This document shows, in pieces, positions 27,688 to 44,339 of a stretch of 64,000 nt of DNA; positions within the stretch are counted from its first letter, which is position 1, and each line of letters begins with the position of its first letter. The translations under genes and the position numbers were made by a program. Source of the DNA: Planctomycetaceae bacterium (lineage in GTDB: Bacteria > Planctomycetota > Planctomycetia > Pirellulales > Pirellulaceae); NCBI GenBank assembly GCA_018660825.1, contig JABJJO010000014.1:1-64000 (forward strand). Reading direction: 5' to 3'. The notes below the pieces were generated by a model. The model saw only the letters and a list, made by a program, of their open reading frames with translations. It made no database searches and was not told where the DNA came from.

Positions 27688-28162
27688 CTGCTTAATACCT
27701 TATTTCAAAAAAAGTGTTAAATGACAACAAACAAAGGGTAGCTTCCATTTGGCTTGACGCACGTTAATATTACGTAGAATAACAACGATTCGTTCAAGTA
27801 AATGGAAAACAGTGCGTTTGATAGCTGTCGAGTTGTTGGAGAATAGACGTAGCGTCAATGCTAGCGAACTAAGTGGAGAGTATTTAATCTTCTTATCTAT
27901 TTTTTCGGATTCGGTACAAGTGGTAGAGGGTACCACGCACTAAACCGCTCACTCAAAGTTTACTATTCTCGTGGAGTGTCCTATTATTAGCTTTACTGCT
28001 ATTAAGTCAATAAAAAAAATGTTTTTTTTAACAGATAATGCGAAAACTACTGATATTTGATTGGTATTGGGTGAATTGTGAGGGAAAAAGACGTCAATTG
28101 GCTATGATTTAGCAAACAACCACCAACGAGCGACGAGTCTTAGAAATGAATAGGAGATGGTA
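27688..28162. other. Intergenic region, 475 bp
   Basis: No gene is supported. The sequence is AT-rich with a poly-A/poly-T stretch (28012-28030). It must hold promoters for the divergent genes at 27687 (minus) and 28163 (plus). AGGAG at 28152-28156 is the ribosome-binding site of the plus-strand gene. Confidence 0.5.
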
Positions 28163-28588
28163 ATGATTTGGGTACAACGAAAGATAACGATACCTGCTAA
28201 ACATCGTGGATTTCATCTGATCACAAACTTGATTGAGCAAGAGATTGAGGAGTTAGGTCGAATCGATATTGGTGTATTGCACGTGTTTATTCAGCACACA
28301 TCGGCCTCTTTAACGATCAATGAAAATGCGGACCCTGATGTTCAAGTTGATTTGGAATCTTCGATCAACGCGATTGCCCCAGAAAATTTCCCATATATTC
28401 ATACGCTCGAAGGACCTGATGATATGCCCGCCCACGTAAAAGCATCTTTGCTCGGAGCCAGCGTGTCGGTGCCAATTTGCAAGGGGCGATTGCTACTGGG
28501 CACATGGCAAGGCATCTACCTAGCAGAGCACCGTGATCGTGCGGGCGGTAGGAATTTGGTTCTGACGCTACAAGGGACGATGGATTAG
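28163..28588 (+). CDS. yjbQ: YjbQ/UPF0047 family protein
   Basis: A protein of about 141 residues matching UPF0047 in full: LHVFIQHTSASLTINENADPDV, EGPDDMPAHVKASLLGASV and GRLLLGTWQGIYLAEHRDR. The family includes E. coli YjbQ, described as a secondary thiamine-phosphate synthase; a conserved His/Asp/Glu cluster (IQHTSAS, HTLEG..DDMPAH, EHRDR) probably binds a metal. The start at 28163 is favoured because AGGAG at 28152-28156 abuts an earlier ATG at 28157 and is correctly spaced only for 28163. It is cytoplasmic. The convergent PSCyt1-WD40 gene ends 49 bases downstream. Confidence 0.93.
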   Translation: MIWVQRKITIPAKHRGFHLITNLIEQEIEELGRIDIGVLHVFIQHTSASLTINENADPDVQVDLESSINAIAPENFPYIHTLEGPDDMPAHVKASLLGASVSVPICKGRLLLGTWQGIYLAEHRDRAGGRNLVLTLQGTMD

Positions 28589-28637: not shown

Positions 28638-31358
28638 CTATTTAGCTGTTTGTAGGGTTACCACTTGTTGGTGGATTTGGTCGATACCTGTGGTGGAATC
28701 AGCAACCACCTTAGCAGCAGCGGCTAGTGCGACCTTGGCTTTAGCTAAGGCGTCTGCGGGAGGCTTTCTCGCAGCAATCGCTTCCGTTTGAACCTTCTTT
28801 GCAGCGGCCAAGGCGGTTTGTGCATCGACGACAGCTTTCTGAGATGCAGCGTACGCTTGTTGTGCTACTGTTAATTCAGCTTTGAGAGTTACAATTAGTT
28901 TCTCGGCAACCGGTAATTCAGCAGTTTTCTTGTCGGTAAGCGTTTTCAACACGTCAGCAGCAGCTTTTAATTCTTTATCACCGCCGGTGCTAGTGACCGC
29001 TTCGTTTGCCTTGGTAACCGCAATTCCCAATGCCACGACAGCGGTTTTTAAGTTGTTTGAATTGGTAACCGCATCTGTTTGAGATTTTTCAGCAGCTTGT
29101 TGAATCTTCAACGCGGCCGCTTGAGTTGCTGTCGCAGCGGTCACACGTTTCGTCGTGTTTGCAACTGTCGTGTCGGCCGCGGTGACTTTTGCATTGGCGG
29201 TATTGTATGTCGCTTGTGCTTCTTTGGCCGTTCCGCCAAGTTCCGCGTGAGTTTGATGTTGGGTGGCCAACGTTTCATAGGCGGCATCGAGTTTCGTGTG
29301 TAGCGTCCCAAGTTGTTTGGAGAAAGCGATTTCGCTATTCCAGTAGTCCACTTGTTGTTGGCTCGCCAAGACGATTGCTTGTGCTTCAGCGGCCAGTTTT
29401 GCGGCGGCGGTCGTTGCGTCTTCCGCCGGCTTGACGGTCGCCCCAATTGTGTCCATGTCCTTTTTGGCATTAGCCATATTCGTTGTCGAATCGACCTTAA
29501 GTTTTTGAGCGGTTGCGAGTTGTTGCTGAGCCGTAGTGAGTTCAGCTTTGGTTGTTGCCGCGGTTGATTGTGTGGTTTTCAAGTCGTTGAGTCGCGTAGT
29601 CAGTGCAGCTTCTAGTTGGGCAGTGAGTTCTCCAAGTTCTTTGTCATCGGTGTTCGTTGCGGCCGCAGCCTTAGCTTTCGCTACTGATTCAGTAAGGCCA
29701 GGAATAACGGGAGCAGTTTTGGTCGCGAGTGTCGTCAGGGTTTTGTATTTAGCATCCAACGATTTCGTCGATGTATCGTAGGTTGTGATTTGACTTTGAG
29801 CGGTTGCTAATGTTTTCTTAGCAGTTTCCATTTGCAGCATAGCTGTTGCCAAGTTCTTTTTGATTAGATCCATATTGGCTTTGGTTTTTGCGGCGTTGTC
29901 GGCTAATGGTTTATGTTTTGTTTGGGCAGCAGCGAGTGCAGTCGTTGAAGTTGCGAGTCGAGTTTCCAAAGGTTGAGGGTTCGAATCAAGTTCACCGACA
30001 AGTACACCGTCATCTGCTTTCCAGACGTTGATTTTCCCAGTCCAATCACCAGCGATAACGCGATTGGTTTCATCACAGAAAGAGCATTCCATCGCAATGT
30101 CAGAGAATGCAGGGAAGGCTCGTTGTTGAGCGCCAGCTTGGTCCCAGACTTTTGTCACACGATCGCGCCCGCAGGTCACTAGACGCCCGTCACGAGCAAA
30201 TTCAAGGCTTGAAACGCCACCCCCATGAGCCCCCCATGTTTTCACTTGGCTTCCATTTTCCATTTCCCAGAGTCGAACGCTACCGTCTTCACTACTGGTT
30301 GCCAGAATATTTGAATCCGCCCGCCAGGAGATACCTGTAATGCGTTTGGAATGACCTTTGAGTGTCAGATACTCTCGACCGGTAAACGCTTCCCAGACGT
30401 GTAGTCCGCCGTTGCGGTCGCCGGTTGCTAGCAGTACACCGTCGGGTGAAAACTCCATACGAGTAATCCATTCGGTGTGTTTTTTGATTTCGAAGAGTTG
30501 AGAACCGTCTGCTGTTGAAAAAATACGAATGAGTTTCGAAGGTCCGCCAAGTGCGATGAGAGATTGATCGGCACTAATGTCAGCCCCCATTACTGCGTCC
30601 AGTTCATCACCGATTTCAAATACTCGTTCCCCATTAGCAATATTGAAAACAATAACTTTTCCCGTTGATGAGGATGTGCCTCCACCAGCTAACAGCAGAC
30701 TACCGTTGCGGCTGAATTTCAACACATAGGCGATTCCTTCGGGATAGGGCAGTACGCCTTTGATTTGCAGAGTATTGGAATCGTAGAGCGTAATTTTCTT
30801 TTGGCCGGCGATAGCAGTAAGCGACGACCATGGATTGGTGGCGATGGCACTGACTGCTGCTGTCTTAGGCGAATACACATTTGGTTGTTTGTCGATACGA
30901 CCGGGCATTGGGGCCGTGGCCGGTTTTCCAGATGGATTGTCACTCACGGTAAATTCAAATTTTGGTTTTTCCGGAACCATGACTTTACTACCGGAATTTT
31001 CGGGGGCACCGGCGTCGATCCATTTCTTAATGGTTTCAATTTCGGGCGATGGAATGGGATCGGCATTCGGTGGCATAAAGGGTTCAGATTCATGCGTGAT
31101 TAACATGAAGAGGTAGCTATCTGCGGCAGCTCCAATTTCAATAACGTCACCAGAGGCTCCACCTAGCATAATATTGGTGTACGTTGAAAGATCGAGCCCA
31201 CCACTTTTTTTGTTAACGTTGTGGCAAGTCGCGCAGCGTTGTTTTAAGATTGCCGATACGTTATCGTCCCATGTCATACGCAGTTCTTTTTTATCTTGAG
31301 CGGATACAAATGAGGTGATGCTTATGAGCAAGGCAATGGCTAGGAATTGACGAAACAT
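28638..31358 (-). CDS. PSCyt1 cytochrome c plus WD40 plus long coiled-coil protein
   Basis: A 906-residue secreted protein with three parts. A signal peptide (MFRQFLAIALLISITSFVSA) is followed by a planctomycete cytochrome c-like domain, with CATCH at residues 42-46 and MPPNADPIPSPEIETIKKWIDAGAPE. Residues about 165-470 hold WD40 repeats (for example ITRMEFSPDGVLLATGDRNGGLHVWEAFTGRE). The C-terminal about 430 residues are almost wholly Ala/Lys/Thr-rich helix, probably a long coiled coil. It is last in a four-gene minus-strand cluster with DUF1549/1553, PPC and DUF1501 genes. Heme ligation to one CxxCH and a structural role at the envelope are expected; the reaction is unknown. The coiled-coil tail seems unusually long for a PSCyt1-WD40 protein. 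Confidence 0.88.
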   Translation of the reverse strand: MFRQFLAIALLISITSFVSAQDKKELRMTWDDNVSAILKQRCATCHNVNKKSGGLDLSTYTNIMLGGASGDVIEIGAAADSYLFMLITHESEPFMPPNADPIPSPEIETIKKWIDAGAPENSGSKVMVPEKPKFEFTVSDNPSGKPATAPMPGRIDKQPNVYSPKTAAVSAIATNPWSSLTAIAGQKKITLYDSNTLQIKGVLPYPEGIAYVLKFSRNGSLLLAGGGTSSSTGKVIVFNIANGERVFEIGDELDAVMGADISADQSLIALGGPSKLIRIFSTADGSQLFEIKKHTEWITRMEFSPDGVLLATGDRNGGLHVWEAFTGREYLTLKGHSKRITGISWRADSNILATSSEDGSVRLWEMENGSQVKTWGAHGGGVSSLEFARDGRLVTCGRDRVTKVWDQAGAQQRAFPAFSDIAMECSFCDETNRVIAGDWTGKINVWKADDGVLVGELDSNPQPLETRLATSTTALAAAQTKHKPLADNAAKTKANMDLIKKNLATAMLQMETAKKTLATAQSQITTYDTSTKSLDAKYKTLTTLATKTAPVIPGLTESVAKAKAAAATNTDDKELGELTAQLEAALTTRLNDLKTTQSTAATTKAELTTAQQQLATAQKLKVDSTTNMANAKKDMDTIGATVKPAEDATTAAAKLAAEAQAIVLASQQQVDYWNSEIAFSKQLGTLHTKLDAAYETLATQHQTHAELGGTAKEAQATYNTANAKVTAADTTVANTTKRVTAATATQAAALKIQQAAEKSQTDAVTNSNNLKTAVVALGIAVTKANEAVTSTGGDKELKAAADVLKTLTDKKTAELPVAEKLIVTLKAELTVAQQAYAASQKAVVDAQTALAAAKKVQTEAIAARKPPADALAKAKVALAAAAKVVADSTTGIDQIHQQVVTLQTAK

Positions 31359-31454
31359 GATACTTCTCCGAAGGGGCTTTCAGGGTGCTGAAAACAACTA
31401 ATGACAGTAGTAAAGGAATTTAAATGTAGGAGTGTTGGTAACATTCCTGTTGGC

Positions 31455-33878
31455 TTAGTGGTTAAATAGAAATTCGCGTGAATTCAATAGTGCCCAGAAT
31501 GTATCTTCGAGCGCTTGCTGTTTATTCTCTTCCTGAGAGATGATTTCCACGAGATTGGTAAGCTCTTTTTCGGTAGGCTTGCGGCACAGACACCGAATGT
31601 ATAATTCTTCGAGAATCTGAGGAATGGGCACTTCTTCGCCGAGTCGCGTCGGAATCAGTTTGCCTTGTTGGATTTTCGCATTAACAGTATCGCCGTTAAG
31701 CATATGCAGCGCCTGTGAAAGATTGGGTTCCATTTTTACTTCGCAGGCACAAACCGTTTCTCGTTTGGCTCGGCCAAATGTCGTTAAGAAGTAGGTACTC
31801 GTATTTCCATTTGCAATTTGCACTGCGCGGGCACCATTAGGCAGACCAGGGAACTTGTTGGAAGTCGAGGTGATCTGTGTAATGGCATCGAGCATGATTT
31901 CGGCACGCATACGGCGTAGAGCAGCGTGTGAGAAGTTGCGTGAATCCTTTTCGTTGGTTTCATTGGTTCCGGTGCTAAGTTGATATGCACGGGACGTGCA
32001 AATGTCGCGAACGATTTTCTTGAAGTCGTAGTTGTACTCGGTGAACTTAGAAGCGAGCGTATCGAGTAGTGCGACATTGACTGGAGGATTACTCACTCGA
32101 ACATCGTCTACTTCATTGATAATTCCTTGGCCAAAGAAGTGGGCCCAAACTATATTGGAAAGATTTCGAGCAAAATAAGGATTGTCATTTGACGCTAACC
32201 AGCCTGCCATTACTTGGCGACGATCTTTCCCTTGTACATCCGGAGTATCACCGCCGAGGAACTTAGGCTCCATCACTCGGTTTCCAACAGGGTGACGCAC
32301 GACGCCACTACCGCTATTAAACACAATGATTTCACGCGGGTCTTCGGCTGATTTACGTCCGATTTGGGAGAAGAACGCGGCGAAGCTATAGTAGTCATCC
32401 ATCGTCCATCGGTCGAATGGGTGATTATGGCATTGTGCACATTGGATACGCATGCCCATAAACACTTGAGCTACATTTTCAGCGACTTTAAGCGTGTCTC
32501 TTTCGTTTTGATAATAATTTGTCGCTGCATTAGCAAACGTACCGCCGTTGCTAGATAGCAAGTCTTGGACCATCACGTTCATGGGTACGTTGTTTGCAAT
32601 CTTGTCCTGCAGCCACGTGTAGTACAATAGCATCGATTTGTAACTGATTTGTTGGGTTGTTCGGATCGTTAATAGTTCAGCCCATTTCATCACCCAAAGT
32701 TCGACGAATTCTTTACGTCCTAACAGGTCGTCAACAAGTTTGTCGCGTTTCTTGGGATCCGCGTCAGCCAAGAATGCGTTGTATTCATCGACGGTTGGAA
32801 CGCGTCCAGTGATATCCAACGTGGCTCGACGGAGAAATTCCTCATCCGAGCAGAGTTCTGAAGGGATGATACGTAGCTTTTTGAATTTTTCGTTTAACAG
32901 TGTGTCAACGTAGTTGTTTTCGGGAATTTCTTTCCATGTGAAATCGAGTCCTTTGGGGAGTACGATAATGTGGGTGCCGACGGTGTGCGTGTCAAAGCGA
33001 GCCATGACGAATGCTTCGCCTCGGTTCTGAGCGGTTGTTGTACCGTCTTGATCGATAATGACCGAGTTTTCGTTGCTTGATAGGAAGAAGGCGAGATGAC
33101 TAACATCGCGATTGGTTCCATCGGAATAGAAAGCACGGACGGTTATTTTTTGTGTAGCACCTTCGCCATCGAGCACCGCGGACCTCGGGTACACTTCGAT
33201 TTTCGTGCAGGTTGGAATGTCCGCTTTGTCGGCAACAGCGCCTGCATCAATCCATTCATGCATGAGGTTGTACAGTGGGTCATCCTTACGGAATCGAGTA
33301 CCGCCAGTATGCGGTACTGCAGCAGTACTCTTGGTAAGCATTAGGCTCTCGTGTGGAAACGCGAGGTTGATTCGGCGGTTTCCAATTTCACGTGTTACCC
33401 GTTGATAATCACCAGCATGGTCAAAACCAAAAAGAGATAATCGAAAGCCATCTTTACCACTAGCAGCACCGTGACAACTTCCAGTATTACAGTTTGCTTT
33501 CATGAAGATGGGCATGATGTCTAGCTTAAAGCTAAGTTCTGGGGTCACCGTGGAATCCTTAACAACGGCAGGTAAACTTAACGTCTTACCACCAAATGTG
33601 ACGGATACAGTGGTTTCGCCGTCTGCTGCAGGAGCGAGTGTTGTTCCCTCGAGTTTGATGAGGTTCTTGTCAGCAACGGTGATGGTTGCTTCTGCCGTCA
33701 CGTCACGCGTCAGTCCATCGGCAAACACGGCTTGAACCGTGATAATTTGGCGATCGCGGGCATTGTACAATCCAATGTCACTTGGATAGGCTATGATCTC
33801 AGTCAATTCAGCCGCTGAAATAACGGTCGAGGAAATAATGAGTGCTAGACAAGCGATGTAACGTAATGTTGAAGCCAT
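31455..33878 (-). CDS. DUF1549/DUF1553 (PSCyt2/PSD1) protein with Ig-like repeats
   Basis: An 807-residue secreted protein with a signal peptide (MASTLRYIACLALIISSTVISA). Two BIG2-like Ig-fold segments (about residues 27-108 and 225-310) flank a heme-type motif C130-NTGS-C135-H136 with four intervening residues, followed by GAASGKDGFRLSLFGFD. The DUF1549 region (about 325-530) contains CAQCH at 480-484 within the sequence CAQCHNHPFDRWTMDDYY, and DUF1553 fills about 560-800 with a DVRVSNPPVNVALLDTLA segment. This is the standard planctomycete PSCyt2-PSD1 architecture, function unknown, extracytoplasmic. The 65-base gap to the PPC gene and 96 bases to the WD40 gene suggest one transcript. Confidence 0.92.
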   Translation of the reverse strand: MASTLRYIACLALIISSTVISAAELTEIIAYPSDIGLYNARDRQIITVQAVFADGLTRDVTAEATITVADKNLIKLEGTTLAPAADGETTVSVTFGGKTLSLPAVVKDSTVTPELSFKLDIMPIFMKANCNTGSCHGAASGKDGFRLSLFGFDHAGDYQRVTREIGNRRINLAFPHESLMLTKSTAAVPHTGGTRFRKDDPLYNLMHEWIDAGAVADKADIPTCTKIEVYPRSAVLDGEGATQKITVRAFYSDGTNRDVSHLAFFLSSNENSVIIDQDGTTTAQNRGEAFVMARFDTHTVGTHIIVLPKGLDFTWKEIPENNYVDTLLNEKFKKLRIIPSELCSDEEFLRRATLDITGRVPTVDEYNAFLADADPKKRDKLVDDLLGRKEFVELWVMKWAELLTIRTTQQISYKSMLLYYTWLQDKIANNVPMNVMVQDLLSSNGGTFANAATNYYQNERDTLKVAENVAQVFMGMRIQCAQCHNHPFDRWTMDDYYSFAAFFSQIGRKSAEDPREIIVFNSGSGVVRHPVGNRVMEPKFLGGDTPDVQGKDRRQVMAGWLASNDNPYFARNLSNIVWAHFFGQGIINEVDDVRVSNPPVNVALLDTLASKFTEYNYDFKKIVRDICTSRAYQLSTGTNETNEKDSRNFSHAALRRMRAEIMLDAITQITSTSNKFPGLPNGARAVQIANGNTSTYFLTTFGRAKRETVCACEVKMEPNLSQALHMLNGDTVNAKIQQGKLIPTRLGEEVPIPQILEELYIRCLCRKPTEKELTNLVEIISQEENKQQALEDTFWALLNSREFLFNH

Positions 33879-33943
33879 GATGACAAAAACCTAATGGTTG
33901 GAAAATGGTAAAACGTATGTGTTGATTATTGGTTGCAAAAGAC

Positions 33944-36451
33944 CTACTCTTCGCCGCCACCCGCTTCTGGGTTGGTTCGTTGTTGAGCAGCAAGTCGCAG
34001 TTTTTCAAGTCGTGTGAGCGGCTTAGCCATGGGTGGTTTTGGGGCGGGTTTGGGAGTCGCTGCTACAGCCATTGGCATTGGTTTAGGTTTAGGCGGAGCG
34101 TTTTTAGGCGGAGGTAATGGCTTGTCGATCTGCAACTGGGTTGTTGCTGCACGAGAAGTCATTGGTTCACCATCTTTTGTGATCGTAATTTGAGCGAACA
34201 CGTTGGTGTGCTTTCCAGCCGGACTCGTTTTATCCGTTTTAATGTTAAAAACTAATTCCTTGGTGTCTTTGTTGAACTCCATATTGGTCGTTGTAACTTT
34301 GGCGGGCAGTCCAAGTATTTGAACCGTTGCTGTACCGTCAAACGGAGTTGCATGATTTAGCTTACAGAAGATTTGCGTTTCTAAACCTTGCTCAACGGAC
34401 GCACGTTCCATGGAAAATGTTACGAACGGCTCGGTTATTTCGAGCGTGGCTAGTTGAGAGGATACCCAACCAGTGCCCCCGATATCAGCGGATCCAAGGA
34501 CGTATATAGGCCACGTACGGATTTGCGCACTTCCGGAGGCATTAAGTGGATAGATTGCTTCGTTTTTGCCTTCAGGAATGACAACGGTTGAGCGAGTTCC
34601 AAGACCTGGTGGTCTGAACGGGAACTGCAGTGTAATAGCCTTCGTGTACCCTTCTTTTCGATGGGCAATGACCTTGAGGTTCATGACGCCGGTACGAACT
34701 AGCGGTACTTTTGGCTGCACAATTTCCAAAGTAAATGGTACTTCTTCAACGACTGCGATAGGTAATTGCTCAACATCTTTAAATACATAAAGCGATTGAC
34801 CTGGTGCACTAATAACCAAGTCCGCCCGATTCTTGAAGTGGCCAGAGATGTTGGAATTTTCGGCGGTGTGTTTTGCTGAAAGCTTGATTAGAGAGCCAGC
34901 GAGTGGTGCATCAGCGGCTGCTTCAAATACAACAGGCATAACACTCATGTTGGCCGCCATGTTTTCAACGTGCATGGTGACACCTGTTGGTAGTCCATCG
35001 CTTTGCAGTTGAAGTTCACCACCGAAGTTTGTTCGCGATGCTGAAATTAGTGTTGCATAGCGATTACCCCGAGGAACAAAAATCTGTTGTCGGCTTTGTG
35101 AATAGCGAGCAACTCTAGGGATGCCTAGAGCTAATGATGGTGCGACTGGTTGAAATTCAACACGATATACAAAGGTTTCTCCACCACGACCAAGGTGATC
35201 GGCAATGCGAAGTACGTATTCTCCGTCGGCAGGGAATGTATAGCGAAAGTAGCTGTCCGGGCCACGAGAATCGTCATTACCTGCGAGAGAGCCTCCAGCG
35301 GCGTTGTACAGATTCATGACGGGGTCGAGTGGCGATCGAATACGACGTGCGAAGCATTCAATGTCAAAAACCTGGCCCTTTTTGGCAGTAAAGCGGAAGA
35401 AGTCAGCGTCTTTTTCTTCACCAATAATGCCGTTAAATGCGTTGGGCAGTTCAGCAGCACACGCTTCGGCGACTGCATTGTTTGGTTCGGTTTCTAGAGA
35501 GTTTCCGTGTTCGAATAAACGAAAGGTGTTTCCGGATGGAGCGATTCCGTGTTCGTCCTGAGGGAATAAAGCAAATTGCGGGTCGAAGATCGTGGGCAGC
35601 TGAACGGTTTGTGTTGTTGTTCCCGCTGGGTCACCGAGGAATTTCACTTCGGTGGCTTCTCCTAATTTTCCGCCGGCAGGGTAGACCGCGAGTGGTCGCG
35701 GGAAGGTACCGATATGGAGGTTGTAACGACAGTTGCCATTTCCAGCGTAACTGCTTTCGCGAATCATGACATAATAAGTACCGTCTTCTTTAGCGACGGT
35801 AGAAGCGACAGCGTCTTGTTTGGCAAGAGGTGTGTCATCGTCTGCAGAGAGTTCAAATCGTTTAGCATCTAAGATGGCGATATAGGGATCAAACAGCGTT
35901 GTCCCCAATCGCATGGCTTCAACTTCAGCAGAGATACGCTGTCCAGCTTTGGCTTCGACAGCGTAATAATCAATGTCTTCGTTGGTGACGATACCCTGCA
36001 CTGTTGTGTTCAATGTGATTTTTTGAGGTTCTTCAAAGCTGCTATTTGGTTCCACTTCCGCTGTTGCTGCGAAGGGTCCCACCCAAAATGTGCGGAATTC
36101 GGTGATGCCGCTACGAGTGCGGACTTGAGCAACGTGTTCTCCCATCCGGCAATCGGCAGCAATATTGACAGTAGCCACAGCCGCGCTGGCTGAAGGTTCA
36201 ATTTTAGTGACCTCGAAGCCGGGCGAATAGAAAAATATTTCTTCGGCATCGTCTAAGCGTGCACCACGGAATGATATTTTGTTTTCGACGCCTCGCTGCA
36301 CGCCTCGTGGCAAGATCAGACTTAGCGACGGTGAGGCGGCTTGCACACAGGTCGCGAGGATCAGGCAACAGAGGGTTGCGGCAAGCACCATCCATGATTT
36401 TGAATGTGCCCTTGAGGCGAGGTTGATGGGGGTGGGGGTGGATCGGAACAT
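33944..36451 (-). CDS. PPC-domain secreted protein with Pro-rich tail
   Basis: About 835 residues from ATG 36451, chosen so that the signal peptide (WMVLAATLCCLILATCVQA) follows a short N-terminal extension; ATG 36469 is an alternative with an upstream GGAG. Two bacterial pre-peptidase C-terminal (PPC) domains are visible: EVEPNSSFEEPQKITLNTTVQG...DIDYYAVEAKAGQRISAEVEA and later ETEPNNAVAEACAAELPNAFNGIIGEEKDADFFRFTAKKGQ. Further beta-sandwich domains follow. The C-terminal 60 residues are Pro/Lys/Ala-rich (KPLPPPKNAPPKPKPMP). PPC domains are calcium-binding-like modules found in exported proteins. It sits between DUF1501 and DUF1549/1553 genes, the usual company in planctomycetes. Confidence 0.87.
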   Translation of the reverse strand: MFRSTPTPINLASRAHSKSWMVLAATLCCLILATCVQAASPSLSLILPRGVQRGVENKISFRGARLDDAEEIFFYSPGFEVTKIEPSASAAVATVNIAADCRMGEHVAQVRTRSGITEFRTFWVGPFAATAEVEPNSSFEEPQKITLNTTVQGIVTNEDIDYYAVEAKAGQRISAEVEAMRLGTTLFDPYIAILDAKRFELSADDDTPLAKQDAVASTVAKEDGTYYVMIRESSYAGNGNCRYNLHIGTFPRPLAVYPAGGKLGEATEVKFLGDPAGTTTQTVQLPTIFDPQFALFPQDEHGIAPSGNTFRLFEHGNSLETEPNNAVAEACAAELPNAFNGIIGEEKDADFFRFTAKKGQVFDIECFARRIRSPLDPVMNLYNAAGGSLAGNDDSRGPDSYFRYTFPADGEYVLRIADHLGRGGETFVYRVEFQPVAPSLALGIPRVARYSQSRQQIFVPRGNRYATLISASRTNFGGELQLQSDGLPTGVTMHVENMAANMSVMPVVFEAAADAPLAGSLIKLSAKHTAENSNISGHFKNRADLVISAPGQSLYVFKDVEQLPIAVVEEVPFTLEIVQPKVPLVRTGVMNLKVIAHRKEGYTKAITLQFPFRPPGLGTRSTVVIPEGKNEAIYPLNASGSAQIRTWPIYVLGSADIGGTGWVSSQLATLEITEPFVTFSMERASVEQGLETQIFCKLNHATPFDGTATVQILGLPAKVTTTNMEFNKDTKELVFNIKTDKTSPAGKHTNVFAQITITKDGEPMTSRAATTQLQIDKPLPPPKNAPPKPKPMPMAVAATPKPAPKPPMAKPLTRLEKLRLAAQQRTNPEAGGGEE

Positions 36452-36617
36452 TTTTTCACAGAGCTCCATACGCTTTAAATTATTGGTTGTGCGATGTGTT
36501 TGAATAGTTGAGTTTTTGAGTTGCACCCTAAACAGTACGGGTAACATCAGATTGCGACCTGATGTCACCCGCATAGTTACTTAATCAATTTGGGATAAAA
36601 TCCATTGGTCTCATTCG

Positions 36618-37931
36618 TTATACGATTAACTCTTGTCGGACTTTACCACCATTGACGATTTCGATTGGACGGTCGCCAGGAGCCATTAACTCCTTGTCGG
36701 CCGTGATTCCTAGACGGTTGTAAATGGTAGTGGCCCAGTCTTCAACGGTCAGTGCATCTTCTTCAGGCTCACTGGCTGTCGCATTGGACTTTCCGTAAAC
36801 AATGCCTTGTTTAATACCGCCACCTGCCATGACAACACTGAAAACTTTAGGCCAATGGTCACGCCCAGCGCTGGCGTTGATTTTTGGTGTGCGGCCAAAT
36901 TCAGAACCGACAAGCACTAACGTTGAGTCCAGTAGTCCGCGATCTGATAGGTCTTGGATCAATGCAGCGTAGGCTTGATCTAAGGCCGGCACTTGGCCTT
37001 TGATGGCGCCATCAATGTTGGTGTGCATGTCCCAACCACCGTAGGTGAGGGTGACAAAGCGAACACCAGATTCAACGAGTCGACGCGCTAGTAGCATCCG
37101 AGCACCGGCCGTGTTGCGACCGTACTTGTCGCGAGTAGCAGCATCTTCTTTGTTGATGTCAAACGCTTCACGTGCTTTTTGACTGCTGATCAGGCTGTAA
37201 GCTCGATTGTAAAAAGTATCGACTGCATCGAGCGAATCAGTTTTCTCTTTCGAGGCAAAGTAGTCATTGACCGTTGAAAGCATCTTGCGACGTTTTGTGA
37301 AACGATTGTCGTCCACTCCACCAGGTAGCTTGAGATCGCGTACTTGGAAGTTGCCACTGGCTGGGTCGGCACCAAGGCTGAATCCAGCATATGAACTGCT
37401 GAGGTAACCGGTTCCAGCAAATCGGTTGGGCTGGTTTGGAATGCAGACGTACGGAGGCAGGTTTTCGCGAGGGCCAAATTCGTGCGATACGACAGAACCC
37501 ATACTTGGGAATTCCAAGGCTGGGCTAGGGCGATAGCCGGTGAACATGTTATGGGTTCCGCGTTCGTGAGCGGCTTCACCGTGTGTCATAGAACGACAGA
37601 TCGCAATCTTGTCAGCGATCTTCGAAGTATTCTTCATCATTTCATTGAGGCGAGTTCCGGGTACATTGGTTTCAATGCTATCCATCGGTCCACGATATTC
37701 AATTGGAGCGAAGGGTTTGGGATCCCAAGTCTCTTGGTGAGCACAGCCACCAGGGAGATAGATATAGATGACCGATTTGGCTGGACCTTCTTTACTCTCG
37801 TAAAATTTTTGGTCCCCACGAGCTTCTTCCATTCGTAAGTAGTCTGAAAGGCTAAGCCCCAGTCCACCTAAGAATCCAACTTGCATAAAGGATCGACGCC
37901 CAATACTGCTGCCCTTGCACTTGTTAACCAT
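36618..37931 (-). CDS. DUF1501 protein with Tat signal
   Basis: A protein of about 437 residues. The ATG at 37931 has GGAG six bases upstream and starts a Tat-type signal: RRSFMQVGFLGGLGLSL with twin arginines. The DUF1501 body includes AKSVIYIYLPGGCAHQETWDPKP, HERGTHNMFTGYRPS and VLVGSEFGRTPKINASAGRDHWPKVFSVVMAGGG, the sulfatase/alkaline-phosphatase-superfamily-like motif region of DUF1501. Tat export implies folding, possibly with a metal cofactor, before export. Function is unknown, though it is invariably found with PSCyt-type genes. It is the first gene of the four-gene cluster; a 505-bp spacer lies upstream. Confidence 0.92.
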   Translation of the reverse strand: MVNKCKGSSIGRRSFMQVGFLGGLGLSLSDYLRMEEARGDQKFYESKEGPAKSVIYIYLPGGCAHQETWDPKPFAPIEYRGPMDSIETNVPGTRLNEMMKNTSKIADKIAICRSMTHGEAAHERGTHNMFTGYRPSPALEFPSMGSVVSHEFGPRENLPPYVCIPNQPNRFAGTGYLSSSYAGFSLGADPASGNFQVRDLKLPGGVDDNRFTKRRKMLSTVNDYFASKEKTDSLDAVDTFYNRAYSLISSQKAREAFDINKEDAATRDKYGRNTAGARMLLARRLVESGVRFVTLTYGGWDMHTNIDGAIKGQVPALDQAYAALIQDLSDRGLLDSTLVLVGSEFGRTPKINASAGRDHWPKVFSVVMAGGGIKQGIVYGKSNATASEPEEDALTVEDWATTIYNRLGITADKELMAPGDRPIEIVNGGKVRQELIV

Positions 37932-38436: not shown

Positions 38437-38667
38437 CTATGATGCCAGTGGCAGTGCTCTTAGATCCGCTTCGATTAGTAGTTTACTTGGATGCTGTAGC
38501 GTATGAGGTTCATCTGGATATCGCTCCAGTTCATCACGTAGCACTTTAACGTCGGCAGGGGCTTCAATTCCCAAGCGGACCTTGTCTCCACTGACCTTTA
38601 CAATTGTTAATGTTATCGAATCACCAAGTTTAATTTTTTCGCAAACCTTGCGTGATAGTACCAGCAT
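38437..38667 (-). CDS. csrA: Carbon storage regulator CsrA
   Basis: A 76-residue CsrA/RsmA: MLVLSRKVCEKIKLGDSITLTIVKVSGDKVRLGIEAPADVKVLRDEL, including the conserved LxLSRK start and the R-x-G-I-E-A segment with the RNA-binding Arg. It binds GGA motifs in mRNA leaders to control translation and stability. The start has GGAGG at nine bases upstream. The C-terminal extension (about 20 residues) is hydrophilic. It is followed upstream by a small conserved planctomycete gene on the same strand, 168 bases away. Confidence 0.96.
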   Translation of the reverse strand: MLVLSRKVCEKIKLGDSITLTIVKVSGDKVRLGIEAPADVKVLRDELERYPDEPHTLQHPSKLLIEADLRALPLAS

Positions 38668-40533: not shown

Positions 40534-41484
40534 TTACTTCTTGGCGCTACTGTAGATTTTGAATTGCTTGGCGATTTCTGCTTCTTGCGTTGTCCCTTTG
40601 TGAATATACACTCGGTAGCGCAAAGTAATCGTCTCACCTTTGGCTAGTGTATGGGAACCATCGATGTTGTTGTCCCCTTTGAAATGGTGCAGGCCAAAAG
40701 GGTTAGCGGTAAAGAGGCCATAAGTTCTGACATGCCAATACGTTGGAAAACGAAAACTACTGGGGTGGTTCATAATAGCGATACCAACCGTGTTGTCTTT
40801 AACCGGTCCAACATAATCAACCCACGGAGCGGCTTTGCCCCACGCAGCGCCATCTTTGTCACCATTGGCATTGAGAACGGTACCACCTAAGTCAGCAGTA
40901 ATTTTCATGCTGCCGGCAGTGCGGACTCCAAAGGAACCTTCTTTCGTATCGCCAAATTTAACGGGTCCATCGCTAGCCGTGACGGTCGTGTCAAAGTCGA
41001 TCCAGTAGGCGGTTTTGTTAGCGCCAAACGTGAGTCGGCGAATGTCTTGGCACTGTCGTTTGCCGTTGGGCCCGATCCAATCATTTGTTGTTTCGATAAC
41101 AGCTGCGTTGCCACTTTTAAGAGTCGTGAATTTTTGGTGGATGATGTTCCCGTGCCCTTCTACTTCACTCCAGAAATCAATACCATTGACGTCACCATGG
41201 GTGAACCAAAAAGAGCGGTGGTGAATATGGTCATTTCGTTCATGTTCACCGGCCTCACGCATTGGATAGGCACGAGTGATTTCATTGCCGTGTGGCCCAA
41301 TGAGTGGCCACAATATCGGTTTGGCGCCCGATTTGATGAGGTAGTGTGTTAGTAGCTTGCCATTGCGAGTAACTTTGACACCGGCATCAGTTTTAGTAAT
41401 CTGAAAGTCATCTGCAGTGGTAACGTTTGACAAGGCAAACAACAGAGTGAGGCAAAGTAGAATCTTGGTTGTTCGGGCAATCAT
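40534..41484 (-). CDS. Secreted DUF6807 (PmoA-like) family protein
   Basis: A 316-residue secreted protein with a signal peptide (MIARTTKILLCLTLLFALSNVTTA). The body carries GKLLTHYLIKSGAKPILWPLIGPHGNEITRAYPM and ERNDHIHHRSFWFTHGDVNG, matching what I recall as the DUF6807 family (labelled 'PmoA family' in some annotations); it has a beta-sandwich look and conserved His residues (DHIHHRS). Function is unproven; related proteins are associated with carbohydrate-utilisation clusters in planctomycetes. It starts 50 bases... convergent with uxs on its 3-prime side; upstream is a 128-bp gap to the receptor gene on the same strand. Confidence 0.85.
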   Translation of the reverse strand: MIARTTKILLCLTLLFALSNVTTADDFQITKTDAGVKVTRNGKLLTHYLIKSGAKPILWPLIGPHGNEITRAYPMREAGEHERNDHIHHRSFWFTHGDVNGIDFWSEVEGHGNIIHQKFTTLKSGNAAVIETTNDWIGPNGKRQCQDIRRLTFGANKTAYWIDFDTTVTASDGPVKFGDTKEGSFGVRTAGSMKITADLGGTVLNANGDKDGAAWGKAAPWVDYVGPVKDNTVGIAIMNHPSSFRFPTYWHVRTYGLFTANPFGLHHFKGDNNIDGSHTLAKGETITLRYRVYIHKGTTQEAEIAKQFKIYSSAKK

Positions 41485-41612: not shown

Positions 41613-44339
41613 TTAATACAATGCTTCAACGCCAACGTAGACGAATGCTGGCGGGCCAGTGCGGGGGCCGTAGGGATGCCGTGTGACCACGTATTTTTCA
41701 TTGAATATATTTTGAGCTCCACCGAATATTTTCCAATTTTCGTTAAACATATAGTATGCCGACATGTCCCAGATGAAGTAGGCGCTGGTGGTACCATAGC
41801 GAGCGTCGGTGGAAACCCCGTCAACAAACGTTTCGTTGCTGGCTGTGGTATAGGTCGCATCGGCGTAGGTTCCAGTGATATCGAACCCGCTCTTGTCAAA
41901 ATGCCACCCTGCCCCCAAGGTCAGCGTAAACTCTGGGATGTAAGGAACTAGTGCGCCGGCTTGTCCTCCAGCAAAAATCGACTCGGCATTATGCGACAAC
42001 GTATCGGTTAGCAATGCAGCATCGGTGTAGGTGGCACTGACAAACAACGGATTGTTAAAGTCAAGGTTTTTATCAATTCCGCGGTCGTATTGCAGTGTGA
42101 ATTCAAGTCCGTTGGCATAAAGAGAACCGACTTGGTCGTTGGATTCTGGGTCGGCTCCGGAACCAACATTATCCAGAACGATGAGATCGTTGAAGTGGGA
42201 ATAAAAGTATAGTAACTGACCAACTACTGCTCGGTCCGGATTTGTATAACGCCAGCCAAATTCGCTGGCGATCACTTCTTCTTCACTCAAACCACTCGTC
42301 AACTTCTTAGGATCTGGCGGAGAAACTCCTCGATTGATACTTGCTAGGAAACTTAAATTCTCGGTTTTCTTATAGGTCAAGCCAAAGCCGCCGCTGGTCA
42401 TGGTCAAGCTTCCGGTGTTATCCTGAGGCGTATTCTCATTGGCAAAGCGTTGGTACCGCATGTCCATCTTTTCTACTCGGATGCCAGGCGTTAACGTCCA
42501 CTTACCGCGACTCATCCTATCCATTGCCCAGAACGCAGTTGCATTGGTTGTCTGGCGACGGTCACCGGCTGCTCCCCAAGTTCCTGCATTAAATCCCGAA
42601 ACGCCTCCGACTGAATTGGTTTCATAGAAATCTTGCCGTTGGAAACGGCGAATGCGATCTGCGTTGAAACGTAGTCCCAGTTGAATGTCATGATCCCACT
42701 TAGACCCTTGCATTGCTAAGTTCATGACGCCCTGATAACCCCATGAATAATAGTCGCGATTATTATGCTTAACACCGAGGACTCCGGCTTGCGTACCATT
42801 GAGCACTCCATACCCCGCTGCGTTGCCAATGGGGTCGCCGAGCACATTAGAGACACCATAGCTGGTACCCATGCTCGCGAGATCGCCATCGTAGAGCTTG
42901 TTGAGTTTGTACCAGTCGCGGTGGAATTTGTTGTAATACACTGTTTGGGCAATTGTCATCCAATCGACTTCTTGATCGCCAATGATCCACCGCAAGTAGT
43001 TACGAGCGCCATAGGTTTGCATGTTGTCAAAACGAGTACCGCTATAACGAGCATAGGGGTCGGCATTGAAGTCAGCCATTGTTTGTCCCACGTAGCCGTC
43101 ATTGGCTTGGAAGGAAGTGTATCCAGTTTTCACTTCAAAGCGTTGATACGTGTCGACGTCACCAGGTTCCCAAAACATCTTGAACATAGGTTCTTGCTTG
43201 GTGAACCCGGTGTCTTGAGCGTTTTGGATGGGGTAATTTACGCCGTCGATTTTTCGGAATCCGTCTGTTTCCCGAAAATATCCTTCGATCAACCACCCCA
43301 CTCTGCCACCATCAGGCGTTTCCATGGTATTGCCGAGCCACGTATGCATGCGCATTTCATTGTTCGTGCCAAACAAGAAATTCGTGTAAATAGTTTTGCG
43401 ATCGGGAATGGGAGTGGAGAGGAAGTTAATCGCGCCACCGGTACTGTGTGGACCAAATTGTATCTGGCTACTGCCCTTAAATACTTCCACGGCACTCATG
43501 CGTCCGACTGTCGGGAAGAAGTAGGCTGAAGGTGCGGAGTAGGGCGCGGGAGCGACTAGGATACCATCTTCCATCAGGGAGATTTTGGCACTACGCCCCA
43601 TGTCCGCACCGCGTAGGGAAATATTGGGGAAATTACCGAATCCGTCTTCTTCGCGTAGATAGACGCCGGGCACGTTATTTAGGATACGGTTGGGATTGTC
43701 GTAAGCTTTACTCTTGAGAGGTCCAAGTTCCAAAAAAGCTCCGGAACCACCCGCATCAAATGCACCTTCGAGGTTGCCAAAAATTGTGCCTGATCCCAGC
43801 ACAGGGGCAAAGGCCGGTTGGTGTCCTTCTACGGTGACCCCAGGAACGGTTGGTGGTTCGTCGTCATCGTCACCGTTTGCTTCCACTGTATCTGCAGTTT
43901 TATCAGGTTCTTCAGCGTCAGTCGCTGTACCTTGGGCGATTTGTGTCTCACCGCTAGGTTCATCATCGAGTTGTATTGGGCTTTCGGTTTCGAACAATTC
44001 ATCAAGCAGTTGTTTTGGCGCCACAAGCAACGGTTTATTTAATAGTTTTTGCAGCGGCTTTTCTTTTGCTTTTTCTTCAGGTTGACGCGGCTCATTTTCT
44101 TCTGACACATCAGCTTGAATTGCTACATCTTTAGCAGGTAGGGGTGTCGGCAGTAGTTCAGCTTCTCCTGAAGCAATCGTCGGCGCTGTTGGAACATCGG
44201 TTGACGAAAGCGTGGGAGATTTGGAAGAAGGTGATGTGTTCTCTGCAGCGGCTAGATACGTTAGGCCGAATGCGAAGATGCTGGCGACAACCCATCGCAG
44301 TGATCGATGATAATTGATGATGGTTTGTTTTTTTCGCAT
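41613..44339 (-). CDS. TonB-dependent receptor (FecA-like)
   Basis: A 908-residue outer-membrane receptor. After an N-terminal signal-like segment (WVVASIFAFGLTYLAAA) comes a Ser/Pro/Glu-rich extension of about 130 residues, then a TonB-box-like TVPGVTVEG, a plug domain (NNVPGVYLREEDGFGNFPNISLRG...) and a beta-barrel ending in FGGAQNIFNEKYVVTRHPYG...VYVGVEALY. The plug and C-terminal pattern resemble FecA-type ferric-siderophore/dicitrate receptors, so iron or heme complexes are likely ligands. It lies in a cluster with exbB/exbD, tonB and hemP. The long acidic/Pro-rich N-terminal extension is unusual and could be a periplasmic linker. Confidence 0.93.
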   Translation of the reverse strand: MRKKQTIINYHRSLRWVVASIFAFGLTYLAAAENTSPSSKSPTLSSTDVPTAPTIASGEAELLPTPLPAKDVAIQADVSEENEPRQPEEKAKEKPLQKLLNKPLLVAPKQLLDELFETESPIQLDDEPSGETQIAQGTATDAEEPDKTADTVEANGDDDDEPPTVPGVTVEGHQPAFAPVLGSGTIFGNLEGAFDAGGSGAFLELGPLKSKAYDNPNRILNNVPGVYLREEDGFGNFPNISLRGADMGRSAKISLMEDGILVAPAPYSAPSAYFFPTVGRMSAVEVFKGSSQIQFGPHSTGGAINFLSTPIPDRKTIYTNFLFGTNNEMRMHTWLGNTMETPDGGRVGWLIEGYFRETDGFRKIDGVNYPIQNAQDTGFTKQEPMFKMFWEPGDVDTYQRFEVKTGYTSFQANDGYVGQTMADFNADPYARYSGTRFDNMQTYGARNYLRWIIGDQEVDWMTIAQTVYYNKFHRDWYKLNKLYDGDLASMGTSYGVSNVLGDPIGNAAGYGVLNGTQAGVLGVKHNNRDYYSWGYQGVMNLAMQGSKWDHDIQLGLRFNADRIRRFQRQDFYETNSVGGVSGFNAGTWGAAGDRRQTTNATAFWAMDRMSRGKWTLTPGIRVEKMDMRYQRFANENTPQDNTGSLTMTSGGFGLTYKKTENLSFLASINRGVSPPDPKKLTSGLSEEEVIASEFGWRYTNPDRAVVGQLLYFYSHFNDLIVLDNVGSGADPESNDQVGSLYANGLEFTLQYDRGIDKNLDFNNPLFVSATYTDAALLTDTLSHNAESIFAGGQAGALVPYIPEFTLTLGAGWHFDKSGFDITGTYADATYTTASNETFVDGVSTDARYGTTSAYFIWDMSAYYMFNENWKIFGGAQNIFNEKYVVTRHPYGPRTGPPAFVYVGVEALY

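Follow-up and report, generated by a model that had tools for sequence, protein, structure and literature searches.

The minus strand of a 64,000-nucleotide stretch of Planctomycetaceae bacterium (contig JABJJO010000014.1, positions 1 to 64,000; here called the window) carries four genes in series between positions 28638 and 37931, transcribed in the order DUF1501, PPC, PSCyt2/PSD1 and PSCyt1-WD40. The question raised by this locus is whether the four genes form one working unit and, if so, what kind of unit it is. For brevity we refer to the DUF1501 gene as TAT, to the gene combining Ig-like domains, a CX4CH segment, PSCyt2 and PSD1 as CYT, and to the PSCyt1-WD40 gene as WD (Table 1). Our answer, to which we give about an even chance of being right, is that the unit is a heme-bearing planctomycete version of a wider exported pair of DUF1501 and DUF1800-type proteins, accompanied by scaffold proteins. 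A preliminary description of the window had placed the four domains correctly, both in kind and in coordinates, and the Pfam scores of DUF1501, PSCyt2, PSD1 and PSCyt1 lie above their cut-offs. The same holds for its statement that twin-arginine (Tat) and Sec export signals occur in one cluster, since DUF1501 has the Tat-type signal SIGRRSFMQVG and the PPC, CYT and WD proteins have hydrophobic N-termini that, judged by eye, are Sec-like; and for its two heme-type motifs in the DUF1549/1553 protein, which are CNTGSCH and CAQCH. To these we add a third heme-type motif, CATCH, in the WD protein, as well as a tail of about 430 residues. The domains were also said to be common in planctomycetes, and the 4.94 Mb host genome indeed has 94 matches to PSCyt1, 85 to PSCyt2, 89 to PSD1 and 124 to Sulfatase, so that single domains are ordinary here.

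The arrangement of the genes can be followed across genomes. Taking the best 80 loci (58-96% identical) from a scan of GTDB genomes with a CYT alignment, we find that 60 carry TAT, PPC, CYT and WD on one strand in this succession; among the remainder, 18 are cut by a contig end and two lack WD. The cut loci comprise nine with CYT-WD, eight with PPC-CYT-WD where the contig stops upstream, and one where it stops before WD, although one of the 18 (L137), with 3.4 kb present upstream, is doubtful as a contig-cut locus. Conservation of this extent is more than chance and no local accident, and the comparison of gene order that had been suggested as a check thus speaks for the cluster. At a threshold of E 1e-200 or better, a CYT relative is present in 15 of 119 genomes of the phylum, the window's own included, and in 130 of 148 genomes of the class, where the CYT gene only was scored and not the order; the cluster is therefore not special to the window. 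The complete four-gene order occurs in 10 of the 14 other phylum genomes with a close CYT relative, and in one more (L048) the locus is cut by a contig end.

In a tree of 45 proteins, for which 14 of the 80 GTDB loci were used, a 100/100 branch parts 29 unit-type CYT proteins from 16 paralogues, of which 15 belong to the genome that holds the window; several of the paralogues sit on long branches, where according to the tool's own warning false joins can arise. By label, the unit-type side includes Phycisphaeraceae, Gemmataceae and Isosphaeraceae. Two records labelled Kuenenia (L109) and Verrucomicrobiota (L136) group with Gemmataceae and Phycisphaeraceae records, and their bins may be mislabelled. 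Among six genomes tested, the unit's CYT is the sole PSCyt2 match in two, G025 and G005 (90% and 93% complete); G017 and G003 have two matches each, G127 has five and the window's genome the 85 given above. We therefore take the unit to be the core member of the expanded family, which may descend from it.

Several features point to joint expression and contact of the products. There is a 4-base overlap between the PPC and CYT genes in L048 and L049, and in L046 (7337-12355) the two are fused into one open frame of 1672 residues; both observations support joint translation and contact. L050 too seemed to have a PPC-CYT fusion, but only because its frame had been extended through a stop, and this case was dropped. 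In the window the intergenic gaps are 43, 65 and 96 bases, counting PPC from its first ATG, as the true start of this gene is uncertain. Because of the gene order, the overlaps and the fusion, we regard one functional, exported unit as well supported, and the four genes are probably co-transcribed. The preliminary description had noted the lack of a clear internal terminator: there is none on the minus strand between 28300 and 38900, yet this says little, as the 3' end of the series is likewise without a site, and with 8 promoter-like sites against 11.9 expected and 9 terminator-like sites against 13.9 expected the scan is uninformative. Of the envelope complex of redox and structural proteins that it had envisaged, the single exported unit holds, whereas an assembled complex remains a proposal. 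Clustering of open reading frames (ORFs) gave no fifth conserved gene common to more than 7 of 95 loci, and all members of the clusters found in at least 10 of the 95 loci lie on the four genes, being either the genes themselves or their other frames. A protein of roughly 950-990 residues with five CxxCH motifs is found near the unit in L040, L041 and L043 only. From alignments A1-A4 we left out L041, a near copy of L040; L051 and L052, where PPC is in two pieces, were left out of A3, and L052 also out of A4 because of a stop within its coordinates.

The TAT product matches the DUF1501 model from position 1 to 389 of 390 and is predicted to be exported via Tat; the twin-arginine pair is missing only from the protein of L100, a sequence truncated at the margin of the stretch that was fetched (this count refers to the DUF1501 proteins of 60 loci). 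Both its structure model and its profile resemble the alkaline-phosphatase superfamily. Specifically, the 50 Foldseek matches listed are by title all enzymes of this superfamily, none better than E 0.0085, and so are the 50 rows listed by VIA-align (Z at most 9.6, root-mean-square deviation 3.8, 158 residues). Comparison by hhalign of a broad DUF1501 profile with sulfatases gives 90.7% over 86 C-terminal columns, and two unrelated pairings used as controls give 0.3% each. Five sequences made up the sulfatase alignment (A6): L058 supplied one, and a pattern search for CxPSR in 14 fetched loci supplied the other four.

Seven charged or histidine residues of DUF1501 (H122, D301, H303, E344, R347, D358 and H359) do not vary in any of 56 proteins, whichever of two kinds of partner they have. 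Of these proteins, 26 are those of alignment A5 (seven of the 12 A2 proteins plus 19 of 21 listed paralogues) and 30 are encoded beside DUF1800 (L236-L265). Unlike the seven site residues, R113, D318 and R357 are mostly replaced in the group beside DUF1800. Across the 26 proteins of A5, unit members and paralogues together, not one Ser, Thr or Cys position is invariant. DUF1501 seems to resemble sulfatases, NPP and iPGM in fold and profile, but differs in having an invariant H122 in place of an invariant Ser, Thr or Cys, and without a conserved nucleophile of that kind we do not file it as a classical member of the superfamily. H122 may stand at the nucleophile's place, a reading that comes from the motif spacing of sulfatases and not from an alignment.

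In all 30 of the loci L236-L265, returned from 99 genomes of the phylum, a DUF1501 match lies within about 1.5 kb of DUF1800. A profile comparison of CYT with DUF1800 (A7, 17 of 25 DUF1800 references) gives 94.8% with E 4.9e-8 over the PSD1 part, and the PSCyt2-PSD1 part alone gives 95.0%. The DUF1800 Pfam model itself scores 24.6 bits against a CYT-type paralogue of genome G024 (26.1 with neighbours, marked as over the cut-off) and 20.6 bits, below the cut-off, against a PSD1 gene of the window's genome; weak DUF1800 matches occur in 7 of the 15 members of A1, the best with E 0.0009. Going by these profiles, the PSD1 part of CYT is a distant relative of DUF1800, a kinship for which we found no statement in the available portions of the open-licence literature. 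Near bacterial chitin synthases, DUF1501 and DUF1800 have been described as one predicted operon with a twin-arginine motif on DUF1501 (PMC5122149). That pair shares with the unit a Tat-motif DUF1501 next to a large protein with a PSD1-like C-terminal part, but differs in that none of the 30 DUF1800 ORFs has a CxxCH motif. It thus seems that DUF1501 is paired with a single type of partner, whose planctomycete PSCyt2/PSD1 form bears heme-type motifs.

Under the reading that we prefer, the core of the unit would be a Tat-exported DUF1501 with a conserved metal-type site and without an invariant Ser, Thr or Cys nucleophile, paired with the PSCyt2-PSD1 protein. By way of Tat, DUF1501 would pass through the membrane already folded, as would suit a protein loaded with its metal in the cytoplasm; its Sec-exported partners would receive heme outside. 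Three covalent hemes are envisaged, two in CYT (in the CX4CH segment and in PSCyt2) and one in the PSCyt1 of the WD protein, which would serve either a redox step or the disposal of electrons. The role proposed for the PPC, Ig-like, WD40 and tail parts is to keep the assembly in one piece or to anchor it to the envelope or to a polymer. Most likely the unit would act on a glycan or ester of the envelope or outside the cell while electrons pass through the hemes; a glycan or glycan ester is our best guess because in some freshwater Verrucomicrobia PSCyt genes lie near sulfatases and some of them carry carbohydrate-binding modules, and because DUF1501-DUF1800 lies near chitin synthases. The chemistry, which the preliminary description had rightly called unknown, can be narrowed by the likeness of DUF1501 to the alkaline-phosphatase superfamily and of PSD1 to DUF1800.

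The same observations can be arranged differently. If the hemes were themselves the function and DUF1501 a degenerate, non-catalytic scaffold, the unit would be a pure envelope electron-transfer module, which we consider doubtful. Three conserved heme-type motifs fit such a module, and so does a DUF1501 lacking the invariant Ser, Thr or Cys that would act as the superfamily nucleophile, but identity of seven residues in all 56 proteins, including DxH, E and the DH pair, is strict for a mere scaffold, and beside DUF1800 the same protein occurs in 30 of 30 loci with partners that have no CxxCH.

How the motifs vary bears on whether they bind heme at all. CYT passes the cut-offs for both PSCyt2 (PF07583) and PSD1 (PF07587), as do all 15 members of A1, and its CX4CH segment has no PSCyt1 match in a Pfam search. 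An HxGG lies within 75 residues of CX4CHG in 80 of 80 CYT proteins, with H190, G192 and G193 invariant in A1, which suggests a His as distal ligand of the CX4CH site. In the WD protein, PSCyt1 (cut-off 22 bits) contains the CxxCH, followed by MP[PRK] in 73 cases (WD counts refer to 75 loci, those of the 80 in which an ORF scored); the MPP suggests a Met ligand. Much as at c-type sites, the residues between the cysteines take many forms in PSCyt1, with 27 strings among 74 WD proteins, and are partly free in CX4CH, with 14 strings among 80. Those of the PSCyt2 motif hardly vary: 73 loci have CAxCHNHPF, six CTQCHNHPF and one CAQCHDHPT. The argument for heme in the unit comes only from the conserved motifs and from a cytochrome c assembly gene in the genome, whose Cytochrom_C_asm protein scores 101 bits.

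Some or all of these Cys and His motifs could instead bind something other than heme, with CX4CH, HTGG and the CxCE of PSD1 forming a metal or iron-sulfur site, or with the cysteines in disulfides. The near-constant CAQCH would fit this, as would the company that CX4CH keeps: CxC[ED] occurs in 11 of 14 wider-family ORFs with CX4CH and in 0 of 74 without. These 88 ORFs were gathered from two genomes, each contributing its top 30 PSD1 loci, from another 20 stretches of the genome that holds the window and from five earlier loci. One of them, L053, is a copy of the unit itself, and some are truncated where the fetched stretch stops. In L200, CxC is followed by G. A joint site is possible, but common ancestry alone may account for the pairing. 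The AlphaFold model of CYT has a mean pLDDT of 76, and its low-confidence stretches fall on all the motif sites (122-153, 160-172, 183-193, 479-490 and 702-715) as well as on stretches without motifs (16-21, 509-523, 590-595 and 679-695). A missing cofactor would explain the low confidence at the motif sites, which is no proof and would fit any cofactor. Against a non-heme role, the freedom of the intervening residues in PSCyt1, and in part in CX4CH, is c-type-like, and the genome has the c-type assembly gene; we think this alternative unlikely.

The Ig-like domains of CYT resemble those of LigA/LigB and S-layer proteins. They are the only CYT matches listed by Foldseek and VIA-align, none being listed for the helical part, whose fold is not thereby new, and a sequence search of solved structures with the unit proteins gave clear matches for Ig-like and PPC-type parts only. 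A structural surface layer or adhesion unit with no enzymatic role would suit these domains, the PPC and WD40 parts and the long tail, but is very improbable, as it accounts neither for the metal-type site that is invariant in DUF1501 nor for the conservation of the heme-type motifs.

A number of observations weigh against the heme-bearing, DUF1800-related unit that we favour. The profile match between CYT and DUF1800 covers PSD1 only, with PSCyt2 outside it, and the window's CYT scores 12.4 bits to DUF1800 (PF08811), below the cut-off of 26.1. A narrower DUF1501 alignment reaches only 73.2% with sulfatases and aligns the N-terminal half differently and less convincingly; the fold matches are middling, Z values such as these being common according to the tool's own warning, and the DUF1501 structure model is poor (mean pLDDT 49). 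ResB barely passes in the window's genome (24.8 bits, cut-off 24.6) and is missing in G127. The unit is also not complete everywhere: L129 and L131 are without WD despite 1.6 and 1.2 kb of downstream sequence, L047 has a different ORF directly upstream where DUF1501 would be, and L043 and L044, from one genus, have CYT and WD only, without DUF1501 and PPC at that place, though one of these genomes (G105) has a second, complete copy elsewhere (L053). In 18 of the 148 class genomes there is no CYT relative at the threshold used. Finally, the glycan substrate is a guess drawn from context.

Table 1. Features of the four-gene unit in the window, with the supporting score or conservation.
Feature	Position	Strand	Score or conservation
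TAT: DUF1501 protein, 437 aa, Tat-type signal	36618..37931	-	PF07394 384 bits, cut-off 27
Twin-arginine pair R12-R13 of DUF1501	37893..37898	-	RR in 59/60 GTDB DUF1501 proteins
H122 of DUF1501, candidate active-site residue	37566..37568	-	Invariant, 26/26 in A5 and 30/30 beside DUF1800
Candidate metal site of DUF1501: D301, H303, E344, R347, D358, H359	36855..37031	-	Identical in 26/26 and 30/30
PPC-domain exported protein, 876 aa from first ATG	33944..36574	-	PF04151 50.5 bits, two stretches
CYT: Ig-like domains, CX4CH cytochrome-like segment, PSCyt2 (DUF1549) and PSD1 (DUF1553), 807 aa	31455..33878	-	158 and 137 bits
CX4CH motif C130-H136 (CNTGSCH) of CYT	33471..33491	-	CX4CHG in 80/80
HTGG H190-G193 of CYT, candidate distal ligand of CX4CH site	33300..33311	-	HxGG in 80/80
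CxxCH motif C480-H484 (CAQCH) in PSCyt2	32427..32441	-	C, C and H invariant in A1; CxxCH in 80/80
CACE C710-E713 in PSD1	31740..31751	-	CxC[ED] in 80/80
WD: PSCyt1-WD40 protein with long tail, 906 aa	28638..31358	-	PF07635 41.9 bits, PF00400 98.7 bits
CxxCH motif C42-H46 (CATCH) of PSCyt1	31221..31235	-	74/75 WD proteins
WD40 propeller, residues about 183-460	29979..30812	-	Pfam match
C-terminal tail of WD, variable, coiled-coil-like, about 430 residues	28641..29948	-	Weak SMC-type match

The SMC match of the WD tail spans residues 471-778 at 22.8 bits, far below the cut-off of the model, and the tail differs in length among relatives. Around the unit, a small gene at 38437-38667 (-) lies just upstream (MLVLSRKVCEKIKLGDS...), which from its sequence we take to be CsrA-like, and a UPF0047 gene (28157-28588, +) converges on the unit's end. 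Further upstream on the same strand are a DUF6807 protein (40534-41484, -) and a TonB-dependent receptor (41613-44339, -), separated from the unit by an epimerase-type gene on the opposite strand.

Several papers place the unit among known systems. For PVC bacteria, a gene cluster or module named 'DUF1501' has been published (Kamneva et al. 2012, as cited in PMC4452313, PMC4960237 and PMC5122149), so that the idea of the preliminary description is close to a published one. That module, as far as those papers relate it, shares with the unit a conserved DUF1501-containing cluster, some proteins with signal peptides and a preference for compartmentalised PVC species; our analysis adds the strict four-gene order, the prevalence in the class, the sole-copy genomes and the links to DUF1800 and the alkaline-phosphatase superfamily. 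Kamneva and colleagues reportedly also described their module as membrane-targeted and as likely to take part in electron transport. In freshwater Verrucomicrobia, which have PSCyt1-PSCyt2-PSD1 proteins, PSCyt2 genes usually stand beside a family of unknown genes, with their function given as unknown, and in some of these bacteria PSCyt genes, some of which carry carbohydrate-binding modules, lie near sulfatases (PMC5615132). The window's CYT differs from that system by its Ig-like domains, the CX4CH segment, CxCE and the neighbouring PPC and PSCyt1-WD40 genes. A redox role has been suggested for a Rhodopirellula PSD1/PSC2 protein (PMC2754498), and DUF1501 is an often-annotated neighbour of planctomycete WD40 genes (PMC5587647). 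The main text, as available, of a paper on essential genes of Planctopirus limnophila contains neither 'cytochrome' nor 'WD40', and the DUFs it names are others (PMC10632474); likewise, neither 'DUF15' nor 'PSCyt' occurs in the accessible portion of a proteome paper (PMC8567305). The unit is an instance of a known, functionally open module and not a new kind, and its novelty is limited. The new leads are its core and sole-copy status in some genomes, the link to DUF1800 and the missing classical nucleophile.

For planctomycete biology, a four-gene set kept in many of these bacteria looks like a real working unit, with a core that resembles a protein pair of other bacteria. As the unit is widespread and its CYT is the sole PSCyt2 match in two of the genomes tested, it is the right member to knock out or purify. 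The DUF1800 link takes the question to other bacteria, since the DUF1800 model also matched Caulobacter vibrioides, a bacterium kept in laboratories, in the control set. A bolder possibility, which we put forward only tentatively, is that DUF1501 and a partner of the DUF1800/PSD1 type make up a wider bacterial machine of two exported proteins and that the unit represents its ancestral form in planctomycetes. There, a protein of alkaline-phosphatase fold that has an invariant His and lacks a classical nucleophile would be coupled to c-type hemes. If so, the machine would carry out a redox-coupled reaction on a surface polymer of a kind not described for the alkaline-phosphatase superfamily, and it would later have multiplied into dozens of paralogous pairs per genome.

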